Of a stretch of DNA of 64,000 nucleotides, positions 55,405 to 63,174 are shown piece after piece. A program made the position numbers and the translations under genes. The stretch is from Haloarcula hispanica ATCC 33960. Lineage in GTDB: Archaea; Halobacteriota; Halobacteria; Halobacteriales; Haloarculaceae. Each line of letters opens with the position of its first letter. Positions within the stretch are counted from its first letter, which is position 1. The notes beneath the pieces were generated by a model that was given only the letters and a program-made list of their open reading frames with translations, was not told the DNA's origin and did no database searches. The stretch spans positions 2,170,001 through 2,234,000 of the forward strand of contig NC_015948.1 in the NCBI RefSeq assembly GCF_000223905.1. The letters are read 5' to 3'.

Positions 55405-55472
55405 CATAGTCGTTCTGATGGCCTCGTCTGTTTGCTGAATCTCGCGCACGGCCGCTGGCGTGGAAGGCAGTA

Positions 55473-55494
55473 ATAAAAATGGTTCCACACGGTG
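55473..55494 (+). promoter_or_regulatory. Shared hut promoter block, permease copy
   Basis: The block ATAAAAA-N2-GTTCC-N2-ACGGTG ends 39 bases before the permease ATG at 55534. The same block occurs before hutU (57617-57638), with 18 of 22 bases identical and no gaps. The AT part is the TATA box; the rest is a probable regulator site. Confidence 0.6.
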
Positions 55495-55533
55495 GTTTCA
55501 GGACTAACTATCAAATGAGAGTATTGTGTGCTA

Positions 55534-56955
55534 ATGTCTACCGAAACAGGCAACACGTACACGGTCGACACTGAACCGGCGGCAAGAGACATCGACGATA
55601 TCGACCTGCACGAATACGAAACGCGGCCGGTGCTGAAGTTCCTGATCGCGTTTCTCATCGGCGGGGTGTTCTTTCTTCTGCCGGTCCCGTACCAGGGCGA
55701 GGTAACAGTCCCGTTCGACATCGTCGTCAGCAACATAACCGGGGCGTTCCCGAACGTCATCGGCGTCTACTCACTGGCGATCATCCTCGCCGGCGGGATA
55801 CTGACGACGCTCGCGATGGCCAGTGACGGCGAGGTCGCGGGGTACGACCTGTCATCCTTCGAAACCTCGGGAGTCTTCTGGGCGCTCCGAGTCGCCGGCG
55901 TGCTCGTCGCGCCAGTGATGTTCTTCAAACTCGGTCCAGAGTGGCTCCACACACCCAGCACCGGCGGGCTGATGTGGGGGACGCTGGTGTACAGCGTCGG
56001 CGTCATCATCCCCATCGGGGCCATTTTCATCACGATATTCGTCGAACTCGGCGGGCTGGAGTTCGTCGGAACGCTTGCGAGGCCGATAATGCGACCGTTG
56101 TTCAAGGTCCCGGGGCGGGCCGCACTGGACAGTCTCGCATCGTGGGTCGGCTCCTACAGCGTCGGCCTGTACGTCACCCGCAATGTCTTCGAAGACGGCG
56201 GCTACCACAAGCGCGACGTGTTTACCATCGCGACGTGCTTTTCGACGGTGTCAATCGGCTTCGTCGGCGTCGTCGCCGCCACGCTCGGGATGCTCCCGAA
56301 GTTCCCGCTCATCTTCGGGGCGTACTTCTTCTGTGTCGTCGTCACCGGCGTTATTCTGGTCCGGGTGCCGCCTATCTCCAGGATTCCCGAGGAGTACATC
56401 GCTGAACCCGACCCGGAACTCGCCTTCTCCGGGACGCCGTCGGATTACGTCCGGCTGGCGGTCAGCGAGGCCGTCGGCAAGGCCAAGGACGGCGAGACGT
56501 TCGCACAGGCAGCCAAACGAGGCTTCGTCGACGGCCTGAAGCTCACCAGTCTCATCCTGGGAACCATCCTCGCTGTTGGACTCGCCGCGACGCTGCTCTC
56601 GGCACACACCCCAGTCTTCGACATTCTGGGTCGCCCGTTGACGCCGGTCATCGCTGCGCTCGGAATCCCGAACGCAGAGGTGGTCGCGCCGGCGACCATC
56701 GTCGGTATCACCGAGATGTACGTCCCCGTCCTGCTCGTGAGCGAGACAGCGACGAAGGCAAAGTTCTTCGTCGGCGTGCTGGCCGTCTCTCAACTCATCT
56801 TCTTCTCCAGCGTCGGCCCGATGATGATGGACATGTTCAGTGACGTCCCCATCCGGTTTCGGGACCTCGTGGCGTTGTTCATCATGCGGACGGTGCTTCT
56901 CGTGCCGCTCATCGCCGGCATTATTCACGCTCTCGCTGCGCTGGGCCTCCTATAG
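55534..56955 (+). CDS. YjiH-family (nucleoside-recognition Gate domain) permease
   Basis: A 473-residue membrane protein with about 11 transmembrane segments. Gate-domain marks are VVSNITGAFPNVIGVYSLAI, LGGLEFVGTLARPIMRPLFK, and PGRAALDSLASWVGSYSVGL plus ATIVGITEMYVPVLLVSETA. It belongs to the YjiH group of uncertain substrate. Its promoter shares a near-identical block with hutU and it ends beside the HTH_10 regulator, so histidine or urocanate uptake is a fair inference. The ATG at 55534 is preferred over a GTG two codons upstream. Confidence 0.85.
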   Translation: MSTETGNTYTVDTEPAARDIDDIDLHEYETRPVLKFLIAFLIGGVFFLLPVPYQGEVTVPFDIVVSNITGAFPNVIGVYSLAIILAGGILTTLAMASDGEVAGYDLSSFETSGVFWALRVAGVLVAPVMFFKLGPEWLHTPSTGGLMWGTLVYSVGVIIPIGAIFITIFVELGGLEFVGTLARPIMRPLFKVPGRAALDSLASWVGSYSVGLYVTRNVFEDGGYHKRDVFTIATCFSTVSIGFVGVVAATLGMLPKFPLIFGAYFFCVVVTGVILVRVPPISRIPEEYIAEPDPELAFSGTPSDYVRLAVSEAVGKAKDGETFAQAAKRGFVDGLKLTSLILGTILAVGLAATLLSAHTPVFDILGRPLTPVIAALGIPNAEVVAPATIVGITEMYVPVLLVSETATKAKFFVGVLAVSQLIFFSSVGPMMMDMFSDVPIRFRDLVALFIMRTVLLVPLIAGIIHALAALGLL

Positions 56956-57594
56956 GTATTCGACCAGCGCTTCAGCCAGTTTCTTTTCCGCCCGCCGCAA
57001 GTGGTCCTCCGCGGTTCGGCGCTCCACGCCCACCTGTTCCGCAATAGCCGCCGTTGTCGTCTCGCGGGGCAGTTCGTAGTACCCCTGCTCGTAGGCCGTC
57101 AGGAACACCTCACGCTGCCGCGGCGACAGATCGGGGAGCATAGCATCGACGGTCAAAAGCGGTGCGTCCGGCGTTACGGAAGTAATCTCACGTTTCGATT
57201 CGACGGTAACGTCGAACTGTCCTGCCAGGGACTGGTACACTCTGGCCAGTGCGTCGGGGCTGAGACCGAGTGCCCGGACGAGCTTGCCGCCACTGGCGTA
57301 TTTCAGCGGCGGGACCAGCAGACAGCCCTCGTTCGCCAGAAAGCGCTCGACGTTGTTGTCGAGCTGTGCTTTCAGACACTCCTCAGTGACCAGCACCTGC
57401 TCGTCGCCGTTTTCCAGCCGCTCACCGATACCGACGGTGGTGCGCACCTGCTCGATAACGTCCCCGACGTCCCCGCCGCTAACGTGCAGAAGGTCGCTGT
57501 GGTCGTTACACCACAGCTCGATGCGGGTGCCGGTCCCGTCGGTTGCCGCCTCGTAGGCCCCGTCGCCGTAGACACGGAACAGTACTTCGTACAT
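56950..57594 (-). CDS. HTH_10 regulator of the hut locus (putative)
   Basis: A 214-residue bat-type regulator. The N-terminal 140 residues (MYEVLFRVYGDGAYEAATDG) are a sensor module; residues 155-205 are the HTH_10 domain LSPRQREVFLTAYEQGYYEL and AEQVGVERRTAEDHLRRAEK. It lies between the permease and hutU, overlaps the permease stop by six bases, and diverges from hutU, so it is the likely controller of both. Whether it activates or represses cannot be told. Its TATA probably overlaps the hutU promoter block. Confidence 0.88.
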   Translation of the reverse strand: MYEVLFRVYGDGAYEAATDGTGTRIELWCNDHSDLLHVSGGDVGDVIEQVRTTVGIGERLENGDEQVLVTEECLKAQLDNNVERFLANEGCLLVPPLKYASGGKLVRALGLSPDALARVYQSLAGQFDVTVESKREITSVTPDAPLLTVDAMLPDLSPRQREVFLTAYEQGYYELPRETTTAAIAEQVGVERRTAEDHLRRAEKKLAEALVEYL

Positions 57595-57616
57595 AGCTAG
57601 CGGTGCACAAGGATAT

Positions 57617-57638
57617 ATAAAAACAGTTCCGAACGGTG
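57617..57638 (+). promoter_or_regulatory. Shared hut promoter block, hutU copy
   Basis: ATAAAAA-N2-GTTCC-N2-ACGGTG, 37 bases before the hutU ATG at 57676. It matches the permease copy at 55473-55494 over 18 of 22 bases at almost the same spacing. The TATA core may also serve the divergent regulator gene starting at 57594. Confidence 0.6.
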
Positions 57639-57675
57639 ACGCTCTGCTAACACGGTTCTCCACTAATGGTGTGGT

Positions 57676-59424
57676 ATGGCACAGCAGTCTTCCCCAGACA
57701 CCGACCACGACGTCGGGACGCCCTCGGAACAGTGGCGCGAGTACCAGGGTTCACCCACCGGCACCGACATCGAGTGTGAAGGGTGGCGACAGGAGGCCGC
57801 GCTCCGAATGTTGAACAACAACCTCGATCCCGAAGTCGCCGAGAAACCGGAGGAGCTAGTCGTGTACGGCGGAACCGGGCGTGCGGCCCGGTCGTGGGAC
57901 GCCTACGATACTATCGTCGACGAACTCCGTGAACTCGGCGACACCGAAACCCTCCTCGTCCAGAGCGGCAAGCCGGTCGGTCGGTTCGAGACCCACGAGA
58001 AGGCCCCGCGCGTCCTCATCGCGAACTCGAACCTCGTCGGCAAGTGGGACACCTGGGAGCATTTTCACGAACTCGAAGCAGAGGGACAGATCATGTACGG
58101 CCAGATGACTGCCGGCTCGTGGGCCTACATCGGCACACAGGGCATCATCCAGGGGACCTACGAGACGCTGGCTGCGCTCGCCCGGGAACACTACCCGGAC
58201 AACGACGGGCTCCGCGGGAAGATTGTCGTCACCGGCGGCCTCGGCGGAATGAGCGGTGCGCAACCGCTCGCGGTGACGATGAACCACGGCGTCTGTCTCG
58301 CGGCCGAAGTCGATGAGGACCGTATCGACCGGCGCATCGAAACGGGGTACTGCCAGGAGAAAACCGACGACCTCGCGACGGCCATCGAACGCGCACAGAC
58401 GGCCGCGGCGAACGGTGAGCCCTACAGCGTCGGCGTCCACATGAACGCCGCGGACATGCTCGCGGAGATGTTGGACATGGGGTTCGTCCCCGATGTAGTG
58501 ACCGACCAGACGAGCGCACACGACGAACTCGAAGGGTACTACCCCGCTGGCTACACTGTCGAGGAAGCCGACCGGCTCCGCGAACGCGACCCCGAGACGT
58601 ACGTCGCGGAGAGTCTCGATACGATGAAGCGCCACGTCGAAGGCATTCTGGAACTGCAGGACAGGGGAGCCATCGCCTTCGAGTACGGCAACAACATCCG
58701 GGGGCAAGTCGAGGACCAGCGCGACCTCGACACAGCATTCGACTTCCCGGGGTTCGTTCCCGCATACATCCGCCCGCTGTTCTGTGAGGGCAAAGGACCG
58801 TTCCGCTGGGCCGCGCTCTCGGGCGACCCCGCGGACATCCACCGGACAGACGACGCGGTCAAGGAGCTGTTCCCGGAGAAAGACGACCTCCATCGCTGGA
58901 TCGACCTCGCCCAGGAGCAGGTATCCTTCCAGGGGCTTCCCTCGCGAGTGTGCTGGCTGGGGTACGCGACAGAAGACGGGCTGACCGAGCGCGCCCGCCT
59001 CGCGCTCCGCATCAACGAACTCGTCGCCGACGGCGAGATTACGGCACCCATCGTCGTCACGCGGGACCACCTAGATGCCGGGAGCGTCGCCTCGCCACAC
59101 CGCGAAACGGAGGCGATGAAAGACGGGACTGACGCCGTCGCCGACTGGCCGATTCTGAACGCCCTGCTGAACTGCGCCGCCGGCGCGGACATCGTCAGCG
59201 TCCATGACGGCGGCGGTGTCGGCATCGGCAACTCCCTGCACACGAACAACCACGTCGTCCTCGACGGGTCTGATCTCGCAGCCGAGAAGGCCCGCCGTGT
59301 GTTCACGACCGACCCCGGGATGGGCGTCATTCGCCACGCCGACGCCGGTTACGAAATCGCACAGGAGATGGCCGACAAGAACAACGTCGCGGTCCCGATG
59401 CGTGACCGCAACCGCGACCAATGA
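57676..59424 (+). CDS. hutU: Urocanate hydratase
   Basis: A 582-residue NAD-dependent enzyme, slightly longer than the bacterial one, that converts urocanate to imidazolone propionate. Landmarks include [22 protein letters not shown] near residue 35, [20 protein letters not shown], the NAD-binding [20 protein letters not shown] and the substrate segment [20 protein letters not shown]. The late [20 protein letters not shown] is also typical. It is the first gene of the hutUGIH run. Confidence 0.97.
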
Positions 59425-60344
59425 CCGACCTGACAGACCCGTCACCGTGGACCGGCTCGTCCGACGACCCGAACGACGAGCAGTTCGGTGACGTCGTCGA
59501 AACGGCCACACTCGCGACCGCTGACGAGTACGACGTCGTGCTGGTGGGCGAGCCGTACGACGGGGCCGTCATCGGACGGCCGGGCGCGCGTGCCGGCCCG
59601 GCGGCTCTCCGACGCGAACTCGGCGGAACGAAGACGCATCACATCGAACGCGGACCGGTCCGCTCAGTCGCCGACCTCGGCGACATCGAGATTCCGGCCG
59701 GCGGCGTCGAACGGGTCCAGAGCGCTGTCCGCTCGATAACGGCCGAGATTCACGCAACGGGCGCAGTGCCGGTGTTTCTCGGTGGCGACAACTCACTGAC
59801 GTTCCCGAACGCCGCGCCGCTGTTGGCTCACGAAACGGTCGGCGCAGTCAGCTTCGACGCCCACCTCGATTGCCGTGCCGTTCGGGACGAACCGACGAGC
59901 GGGACGCCGTACCGTCAGCTCCACGATGCGGGCCTCGACACGCTGGCCGTCGTCGGCGCGCGCCACTTCGAAACCTCGACCGCGTACCACGACTACCTCG
60001 CCGAGCAGGGCGGGACAGTCCTGCCGCCGGCGTCGGTGGCCGGCGACCCTGCCGGCGCGGTGGACGATGCGCTCGCCGCGCTCGGCGACGTGGACGCCGT
60101 CTACGTGAGTCTGGACCTCGACGTGCTCGACGCCGCAGCCGCGCCGGGCGTGAGCGCGCCGACGCCGGGCGGCCTCTCGACGCGAGAACTGTTCCGGATG
60201 CTGGGCCGCGTGGCGTCCGACGACCGTATCGCCGGCTTCGAGATAGTCGAGTGCGCGCCGCCGCTGGACGCCGGGAACCGGACCGCCCGCGCCGGTGCCC
60301 GCGCCGTCGCACACTTCCTCAGTGGCCTGGGAGGTGACCGATGA
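59421..60344 (+). CDS. hutG: Formimidoylglutamase
   Basis: A 307-residue ureohydrolase that converts formiminoglutamate to glutamate and formamide. Two-manganese ligands are in [22 protein letters not shown] (a DAHLD motif) and [20 protein letters not shown]. The specific arginase-family members HutG have this arrangement; agmatinase is less likely given the operon. It overlaps hutU and hutI by four bases at each end. Confidence 0.93.
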
Positions 60345-61603
60345 CAACCCTCGATGCGGTGGTCTACGGCGCGTCCGAACTCGTCGCGGGCCCGGCGGCG
60401 GACGGCCGCGGACTGGAGACCTACGAGGATGGCGCAGTCGCCATCGTGGACGGCACTGTCGCCGCTGTCGGTCCGACCACTGAGGTGACTGCCGAATACC
60501 CGCCGGAGAGCGCCAACCACGCTATCGATGCCAGCGGTCAGGCCGTCATTCCGGGCTTCGTCGACCCCCACACCCACGCGCTGTTCGCCGGCGACCGCTC
60601 GGACGAGTTCGCCGCCAAACTGCGCGGGAAGTCCTATCAGGACATCCTCGCCGAAGGCGGCGGCATCCTCAGAACGGTCCGAGCGGTCAGGGAAGCCGAC
60701 GAGGAAACGCTGCTGTCGAACCTGCTGGCCCATCTCGACACCATGCTCGCTCACGGGACGACGACAGTCGAGGTGAAGTCCGGCTACGGACTCGACACGG
60801 AGACGGAGCTACGGATGCTCCGAGTTATCGACAGGGCCGACGACGTCCATCCCGTCGACGTGGTCCCGACGTTCATGGGCGCACACGCTGTTCCCGAGGG
60901 GTGGGACGCCGACGACTACACCGCGGCGGTCGTCGACGAGCAGCTTCCGGCTGTCGAATCGCAGGGCATCGCCGAGTTCTGCGACGTGTTCTGCGAGGAA
61001 GGGGTGTTCTCGGTCTCGCAGTCCCGACGGGTCCTCGAAGCAGGCGCGGCCGCGGGGCTGACACCGAAGGTCCACGCCGAAGAACTGGCCCACATCGGCG
61101 GGACGCAGTTGGCGGCGGACGTGGGCGCGGCCAGTGCCGACCACCTCCTGCACGCGACCGGCGAGGACATCGACGCGCTTGTCGACGCTGCCGTGACGCC
61201 GGTGTTGCTCCCCGGAACGGCGTTCGGTCTCGGCGCAACGTACGCGGACGCGACGGCGTTCCGCGACCGGGGTGCGCCCGTCGCGGTGGCGACGGATTTC
61301 AATCCGAACTGCCACAGCCACAGCATGGGCTTTGCGCTGTCGCTGGCCTGCGTCGAGATGGGGCTGCCACCGGCTGAAGCGCTGGTCGCTGGAACGAAAC
61401 ACGCCGCGCTCGCGCTGGACAGGACCGATGGGCTGGGGACGCTCCGCGAGGGTACGCCCGGTGACGTCGCCGTCCTTGCCGCGCCGAGTCACGTCCACAT
61501 TCCTTACCAGTACGGGACCAACGTCGTCGACACCGTCCTGAAAGACGGCTCGGTCGTCAGCACCCCAACGCATGAGTCATACGCTCGGGATATGCAACCA
61601 TGA
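60341..61603 (+). CDS. hutI: Imidazolonepropionase
   Basis: A 420-residue amidohydrolase that opens imidazolone propionate to formiminoglutamate. The metal histidines are in [20 protein letters not shown]; the family segment [20 protein letters not shown] follows, then [13 protein letters not shown] and the histidines in [11 protein letters not shown] and [11 protein letters not shown]; the late aspartate is in [14 protein letters not shown]. Start and stop overlap its neighbours by four bases. Confidence 0.96.
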
Positions 61604-63174
61604 CCGCCGAAGTTGTCCTCGACGGCGAGTCGCTCACGCCCGCCGAGGTGGTCGCTGTCGCCCGGAACGGCGCGACCGTCACCGTTGCCGACACCGCCCG
61701 CGAGCGAATCCGCGAGTCCCGCGAGCGCGTCGAGAGCGTGCTGGACAGCGGCGAGGCGGTGTACGGCGTCACCACCGGTTTCGGCGACCTCGTCGACGAG
61801 CGCATCCCACGCGAGGACCTCGATGCCCTCCAGCGGAACCTACTGCGGAGCCACGCCGCCGCGGTCGGACGGGAGTTGACGACCGAGGAAGTCCGGGCGA
61901 TGATGGTCACACGGGCGAACACGCTGGCGAAGGGGTATTCAGGCATCCGTGAGTCCGTCGTCGATCTGCTGGTGGCGATGCTCGACGCTGGTGTCCACCC
62001 GGTCGTCCCGTCGCGGGGCAGCCTCGGCGCGAGCGGCGACCTCGCGCCGCTCGCCCACATGTCGCTGGTCCTCATCGGCGAAGGAGAAGCCGAGGTCGAG
62101 GGGGACCGACTCCCCGGCGACGAGGCGCTCGACGCAGTCGGCCTCGAACCGGTGACGCTCCGGGCCAAGGAGGGGTTGGCGCTCATCAACGGGACACAAC
62201 TGACCGTCGGCGTGGCCGCACTCCTCCTCGCCGACGCGGAACGGCTGGTCGCCGCCGCCGACATCGCCGGTGCGCTCACGACGGAGGTGACCCTCTCCTC
62301 GACAGTACCGTCCCACGAAGCCATCACCGACGTCCGGCCCCACGCCGGCCAGGCCGCGAGCGCGCGAAACATCCGGCGGCTGACGGCCGACTCCGATGTG
62401 GTCGAGTCCCACCGCAACTGCGACCGCGTGCAAGACGCCTATGCGATGCGCTGTCTGCCGCAGGTCCACGGCGCGGTCCGCGACGCCGTCGCCCACCTCC
62501 GGGAGGCCGTCGAGGTGGAACTCAACAGCGCGACCGATAATCCGCTGGTGTTCCCCCGTGAGGCGGTGGGGGACCGGGCCTCCGGCTCCGACAGCGCGGG
62601 CGTGCTGTCCGGCGGGAACTTCCACGGCGCGGTACTCGCCATGCGCCTCGACTATCTGATGAACGCGCTCACCGAACTCGCGGCCATCTCGGAGCGCCGG
62701 ACGGACCGGATGCTCAATCCGAATCTGCAGGAGCCACACCTCCCGCCGTTTCTCACCGAGCGAAGCGGCGTCCGGTCGGGCTACATGATCGCACAGTACA
62801 CCGCTGCCGCACTGTTGAACGAATGTCGGTCCTTCGGCCGGCCCTCGATGGACAACACGCCCGTCAGCGGCAATCAGGAAGACCACGTCAGCATGAGCGC
62901 GCAGTCGGCCTATCTGGCCCGAAACGCAGCCCGAAACGCCGCCGCGATTCTCGGTATCGAGCTGTGCTGTGGGGCACAGGCCGCTGATTTCGTCGACGAC
63001 GCCCTCGAACTGGGCGTCGGGTCGGCCGAGGCCTACGACGCCGTCCGTGCAGTGGTCCCGAAGCTGACGGCGGACCGACCCATTCACGAGGACATCGAGG
63101 CCGCGGGCGCGCTCGTCGAGTCGCCGGCCTTCACCGAGCGGGTTGCTGCGGCGCTCGACGAGGAACTGGAGTGA
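61600..63174 (+). CDS. hutH: Histidine ammonia-lyase
   Basis: A 524-residue enzyme that eliminates ammonia from histidine to give urocanate. The Ala-Ser-Gly that cyclises to the MIO cofactor is at residues 144-146 in SLGASGDLAPLAHMSL. The active-site tyrosine region is VYGVTTGFGDL and the later QDAYAMRCLPQVHG is conserved. Although it catalyses the first step, it is the last gene in the operon. Length is normal for the family. Confidence 0.97.
   Translation: MTAEVVLDGESLTPAEVVAVARNGATVTVADTARERIRESRERVESVLDSGEAVYGVTTGFGDLVDERIPREDLDALQRNLLRSHAAAVGRELTTEEVRAMMVTRANTLAKGYSGIRESVVDLLVAMLDAGVHPVVPSRGSLGASGDLAPLAHMSLVLIGEGEAEVEGDRLPGDEALDAVGLEPVTLRAKEGLALINGTQLTVGVAALLLADAERLVAAADIAGALTTEVTLSSTVPSHEAITDVRPHAGQAASARNIRRLTADSDVVESHRNCDRVQDAYAMRCLPQVHGAVRDAVAHLREAVEVELNSATDNPLVFPREAVGDRASGSDSAGVLSGGNFHGAVLAMRLDYLMNALTELAAISERRTDRMLNPNLQEPHLPPFLTERSGVRSGYMIAQYTAAALLNECRSFGRPSMDNTPVSGNQEDHVSMSAQSAYLARNAARNAAAILGIELCCGAQAADFVDDALELGVGSAEAYDAVRAVVPKLTADRPIHEDIEAAGALVESPAFTERVAAALDEELE

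Follow-up and report, generated by a model that had tools for sequence, protein, structure and literature searches.

The block shared by the permease and hutU promoters of Haloarcula hispanica probably serves as operator in a small regulon for histidine utilization, in which a regulator would bind a dyad, repress its targets and control its own gene, and the permease would import histidine or urocanate. By computation, the two promoters were found to share an operator at a fixed spacing from the TATA box, the operator depended on the presence of the regulator, and the permease co-occurred with the hut genes. The window analyzed is a stretch of 64,000 nucleotides, in which the gene order is thi4 (− strand), permease (+), regulator (−), and then hutU-hutG-hutI-hutH (+), with the hut genes overlapping by 4 nt. 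The regulator gene lies tail-to-tail with the permease and is divergent from hutU. The features, numbered by window position, are as follows.

55471..55480, + strand: TATA-box region of the permease promoter, TAATAAAAAT (sequence read; TATA column in promoter alignments)
55482..55495, + strand: permease operator GTTCCACACGGTGG, core CC-ACAC-GG at 55485-55492 (hutU-trained matrix, pattern search)
55534..56955, + strand: permease of the YjiH/Gate type, a predicted importer of histidine or urocanate (Pfam Gate 3e-11)
56950..57594, − strand: regulator, HVO_A0563_N + HTH_10 (HVO_A0563_N 5e-53, HTH_10 4e-18)
57614..57623, no strand assigned: A/T box, the hutU TATA box in the forward direction (sequence read; promoter comparison)
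57626..57639, + strand: hutU operator GTTCCGAACGGTGA, core CC-GAAC-GG at 57629-57636 (sequence, promoter comparison, pattern search)
57676..59424, + strand: hutU, urocanate hydratase, opens hutUGIH (NCBIfam hutU equivalog, E 4e-289)
59421..60344, + strand: hutG, arginase-family formimidoylglutamase (Pfam Arginase 3e-59; 4-nt overlap with the hutU end)
60341..61603, + strand: hutI, imidazolonepropionase (Pfam amidohydrolase and HUTI_composite; 4-nt overlap with the hutG end)
61600..63174, + strand: hutH, histidine ammonia-lyase (Pfam Lyase_aromatic 1e-181)

The first-pass annotation had described a common block before the permease and hutU. Read directly, its copies ATAAAAATGGTTCCACACGGTG at 55473-55494 and ATAAAAACAGTTCCGAACGGTG at 57617-57638 are identical at 18 of 22 positions without gaps, and they end, as claimed, 39 and 37 bases 5' of the ATGs at 55534 and 57676. 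The TATA part is unremarkable by itself, and the added similarity lies in the GTTCC/ACGGTG part. The genome search for the motif beside TATA boxes, which the annotation had proposed, was performed with the composite pattern WWTAAAAANNGTTCCNNACGGTG; allowing up to 3 mismatches, it matched only two sites in 3.89 Mb, at the permease and at hutU, and a backwards control pattern gave one reverse-strand match in the same search. Without the TATA part, the genome contains exactly 7 copies of GTTCCNNACGGTG. Within the window, this motif with 2 mismatches gave 37 matches compared with 30 expected, which is uninformative; the analysis therefore turned to the composite pattern and to comparison between genomes. 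In the home genome, a profile search picked up hutU and missed the permease, which has the lower-scoring site; both came up in the pattern search. The block is genuine and lies well outside what chance would produce.

Operator architecture and dependence on the regulator

Across 295 genomes of the order, the regulator, permease and hutU genes were mapped, about 140 loci were retrieved, and the upstream regions of 136 hutU, 38 permease and 134 regulator genes were extracted. The block is conserved in related genomes, being found at hutU and permease promoters across the order. The hutU promoters align without gaps over a TATA box, a spacer of about 7 nt, a dyad with the consensus CTCC-GNAY-GGAG and the invariant core CCN4GG, and then a second element. 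Judged from these alignments, a dyad is the more fitting description of the conserved core: CCN4GG between complementary flanks, 7 nt past the TATA box; the Haloarcula dyad is imperfect (GTTCC-N4-GGTG). The second hutU element, with the consensus TATT (CTATTTGCGTCTCGCGC in one family), lies 19–22 nt past the operator CC at the expected start site and is possibly an initiator.

The spacing was analyzed by locating the TATA box first, without requiring the CCN4GG core. The core lay exactly 7 nt after the TATA box in 92 of 129 hutU promoters; in the 36 permease promoters the distance was 7 nt in 16 and 5 nt in 7, the latter corresponding to a 2-nt register choice, and no other distance exceeded 6 occurrences. 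The flanks covary across the dyad, with positions −3/+10 complementary in 56 cases compared with 36.5 expected from shuffles and positions −2/+9 in 71 compared with 60.8, although the promoters are phylogenetically related, so these counts are inflated and do not represent independent events. Such covariation fits a site read by a symmetric dimer.

A matrix was trained on 61 non-Haloarcula hutU promoters, with no permease sequence in the training set. Its best match was upstream of all 38 permease orthologues at a consistent distance, with every score above 6, and 35 of the 38 reached the 99th percentile of dinucleotide-shuffled promoters (8.3), the exceptions being L144, L173 and L171. The score of the permease operator was 13.0 in the window, and the highest among the other Haloarcula was 19.9. 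The operator is kept by five complete permeases that lie far from the hut genes or on other contigs (L201, L203, L215, L217 and L219, from three genera). Hence the co-regulation of the permease with hutU, as originally proposed, is strongly supported, the operator accompanying the permease even when it is unlinked from hut. The hutU and permease operators of the same genome are more alike than shuffled pairings (9.1 compared with 7.8 of 14 positions), a difference to which lineage contributes. Two permease genes appear to be broken (L225:2378-2968 and L223:4183-5582), and the truncated one in L225 is still preceded by the operator.

The presence of the operator follows that of the regulator. 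It was not found in the promoters of 21 of 21 sister-subfamily permeases (44–54% identity; all matrix scores 3.5 or less), nor at hutU in 10 regulator-less genomes of 8 genera (all scores below 3), three of which are only 78–86% complete. In regulator-bearing genomes, it was present at 17 of 17 hutU genes that do not adjoin the regulator. Among hutU genes divergent from the regulator, 118 of 121 scored at least 8, the exceptions being L224, L251 and L269; part of this set was used in matrix training, and a few loci are duplicate assemblies. As the operator tracks the presence of the regulator in the genome, it is tied to the HVO_A0563-type HTH_10 protein and not to hutU itself. These comparisons, in which hutU lacks the operator where the regulator is absent and sister permeases lack it too, strongly favor the suggested control by the HTH_10 protein encoded between the two genes, and the operator is common to the targets as expected for a regulon.

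The matrix scan found no motif at the extra hutU copies of L222, L310 and L312, and the second copy in L311 scored 6. L310 (67% identical to hutU) and L311 (11001-12701, 69% identical) each hold a divergent second urocanase-like gene that lacks a clear operator, the one in L311 adjoining a hutH homologue of 40% identity; the substrate of these genes' products may differ.

Two other origins of the similarity were considered. The A/T half of the block is an ordinary TATA box, which would suit a generic haloarchaeal core-promoter feature combining TATA with an initiation-region preference. We regard this as very improbable, because the motif is absent from the 21 sister permease promoters and the 10 regulator-less hutU promoters, and because 145 of the 172 matrix matches in 1.5 Mb lie at hutU or permease starts, with only two composite sites in the home genome. 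The two promoters are 2.1 kb apart in Haloarcula, as might be expected if their similarity came from duplication or shared ancestry and was kept passively without a common regulator. The retention of the operator at the five unlinked permeases, and its conservation across the order over divergent sequence in step with the regulator, leave this explanation with almost no probability.

The regulator and its proposed mode of action

The regulator belongs to the HTH_10 family (PF04967; 65.3 bits compared with a cut-off of 23.1, residues 156-207) and to the HVO_A0563 family (HVO_A0563_N, 179 bits compared with a cut-off of 27). Only these two domains were found in it, with overlapping sigma-70 region 4 matches. 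In an alignment of 126 orthologues, the LWCNxHxDLL motif and the HTH residues are conserved, and W28, C29, H32, D34 and C73 are conserved in the N-terminal domain. Orthologues occur in about 140 of the 295 genomes and adjoin hutU in nearly all of them. No relative of the regulator turned up when solved structures were searched by sequence, and the structure predicted from only six sequences was weak (pLDDT 62, pTM 0.49). In the permease-less Haloarcula (L148–L152), the regulator is only about 77% identical, compared with 94–96% for hutU; in the two of these loci inspected, L148 and L150, the gap between thi4 and the regulator holds minus-strand open reading frames of 262 and 152 aa.

The motif had been placed near the transcription start. 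It is indeed common to both promoters, and its position can now be refined: the dyad separates the TATA box from the start site and would span roughly −19 to −6, assuming that transcription starts about 27 nt past the TATA center. We infer that the regulator (56950-57594) physically binds this dyad, probably as a dimer, abutting the TATA boxes of hutUGIH and the permease. It would most likely repress by blocking TFB or RNA polymerase, and the binding of histidine or urocanate to its N-terminal domain would relieve the repression. The regulator would also control its own gene from an operator upstream of TATA, and the permease, once expressed, would import histidine or urocanate. The rule cited for the TrmB family is that a protein bound downstream of TATA hinders recruitment of the polymerase and one bound upstream acts as an activator (PMC10817205); by this analogy, a dyad downstream of TATA makes repression the most likely outcome. 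The known HTH_10 relatives Bat and DmsR are activators (PMC1447603), so it is the position of the dyad that argues for repression.

The main rival, which we consider unlikely, keeps the same regulon and operator but has the HTH_10 protein activate as Bat does, recruiting TBP/TFB when histidine or urocanate is present. The activity of Bat and DmsR and the operators just upstream of TATA at unlinked regulator genes, an activator-type place, are consistent with it. Against it stand the dyad downstream of TATA at a fixed spacing at hutU and the permease, where the TrmB-family rule gives inhibition, and TATA boxes near consensus. If the preferred reading of this placement, repression, is true, the protein would be an HTH_10 repressor, unlike its activator relatives.

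The unlinked regulator genes themselves were analyzed with the reverse matrix. A dyad just upstream of the gene's own TATA box scored at least 13 in L162, L169, L195, L209, L263 and L278, all unlinked to hut, and the same placement was judged by eye in L167 and L185; the arrangement is that of the hutU TATA-operator module reversed. No operator was seen at several other unlinked regulator genes, such as those of L166, L168, L170 and L175. In the divergent arrangement, the hutU A/T box lies on the other strand about 20–28 nt before the regulator ATG, so that it may double as the regulator TATA box, and the hutU operator is then also just upstream of this presumed TATA box. The distance from the A/T box to the regulator ATG would fit a leaderless regulator transcript.

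A broader reading is offered tentatively. An HVO_A0563 regulator sensing histidine or urocanate might have opposite effects at the two kinds of site: a dyad downstream of TATA would let it repress hutUGIH and the importer, and one upstream of TATA would let it control, and perhaps activate, its own gene. One TATA-operator module would serve both directions where the genes are divergent, and the operator would recruit whichever histidine transporter family is present.

Regulon content and predicted permease substrate

The regulon appears small. A blind profile search of genomes gave hutU and the permease as the sole matches in G158, G228, G284, G045 and G180, and many of the 27 matrix matches in 1.5 Mb that lie outside hutU and permease starts are at regulator genes or other transporters. 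The operator was observed before an NhaC-type antiporter gene divergent from hutU (L162:2033, L166:3030, L168:3045 and L175:2858, + strand). The antiporter, of 490 aa, matches the arginine/ornithine antiporter ArcD model with 819 bits in L168 and may be a histidine transporter under an arginine/ornithine name. Between the operator and the antiporter start lies an open frame that is 67 codons long in each case (L168:3093-3296; also L162, L166 and L175), which overlaps the antiporter start and is possibly a small protein or leader. Further operators precede PotA-like ABC ATPase genes (L185:1791, L276:5343) and the ABC binding-protein genes SBP_bac_8 (L314:248) and OpuAC (L169:3254), and no YjiH-type permease was found in these four genomes.

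The permease carries a Gate domain (44.1 bits compared with a cut-off of 29.6), and its orthologues are annotated as YjiH family proteins. An orthologue occurs in 40 genomes, all 40 with hutU; hutU occurs in 105 of the 255 other genomes. In the Gram-positive Oceanobacillus jeddahense, a YjiH protein of 33% identity is encoded between hutG and hutH, and hutU-I-G-YjiH-H forms a single gene string. The co-occurrence with hut, this Oceanobacillus homologue and the operator at other transporters elsewhere suggest that the substrate is most likely histidine or urocanate. The direction is presumed to be import rather than export, for which the uptake-type ABC binding proteins behind the operator (SBP_bac_8 in L314, OpuAC in L169) argue. 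It is less probable, and in our view unlikely, that a co-regulated permease exports a product such as glutamate or formamide or moves another substrate. Uptake-type binding proteins behind the operator speak against this, whereas one other operator-bearing transporter fits the arginine/ornithine antiporter model, and among solved structures searched by sequence there was no relative of the Gate/YjiH permease.

Comparison with known systems

The Haloferax volcanii hut cluster HVO_A0559-A0562 was described as a probable, unverified histidine utilization cluster, and that paper, which covers the same pathway, discusses neither regulator nor operator (PMC8305020). The Pfam domain HVO_A0563_N takes its name from HVO_A0563, whose locus number directly follows those of this cluster. 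Our literature search, thin on subscription papers, found mentions of the cluster only and no description of HVO_A0563 or of a haloarchaeal hut regulator, operator or permease. The haloarchaeal hut cluster was thus already known as probable, and the histidine regulon with an HVO_A0563-type regulator, as predicted here from sequence comparison, appears to be newly described. An archaeal amino-acid catabolic pathway thereby gains a candidate named regulator and a precise operator, the Gate/YjiH permease gains a likely substrate, and a recognizable 26-bp signature becomes available for finding haloarchaeal histidine transporters.

The system resembles the Bat/DmsR regulators of Halobacterium (bop regulon, UAS) in its HTH_10 domain, a short site near TATA and a small regulon of neighboring genes. 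It differs in having HVO_A0563_N where Bat and DmsR have GAF/PAS sensor domains, none of which was found in the regulator, and in targeting histidine catabolism. At the main targets, hutU and the permease, the dyad follows TATA, in contrast to an upstream activating sequence, and an upstream site was seen only at regulator genes. Bacterial HutC and HutP are local regulators of hut genes and a permease, with histidine or urocanate as the presumed effector. The present regulator is like them in these respects but shares no domain homology, being an HTH_10 protein and not a GntR-type or RNA-binding HutP protein. The TrmB family (TrmBL1, Tgr and haloarchaeal TrmB) likewise uses one operator whose effect is set by its position relative to TATA (PMC10817205), although the protein family is unrelated, the motif is different, and the targets are in sugar rather than amino-acid catabolism. 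Comparative genomics of the HisR regulons of Firmicutes showed a single histidine motif in front of transporters whose family (YuiF, HisXYZ) varies with the lineage (PMC9413887). The operator described here is similar in that one motif accompanies differing transporter families in different lineages, whereas HisR, a repressor of the TrpR family, controls biosynthesis and the regulon here serves catabolism.
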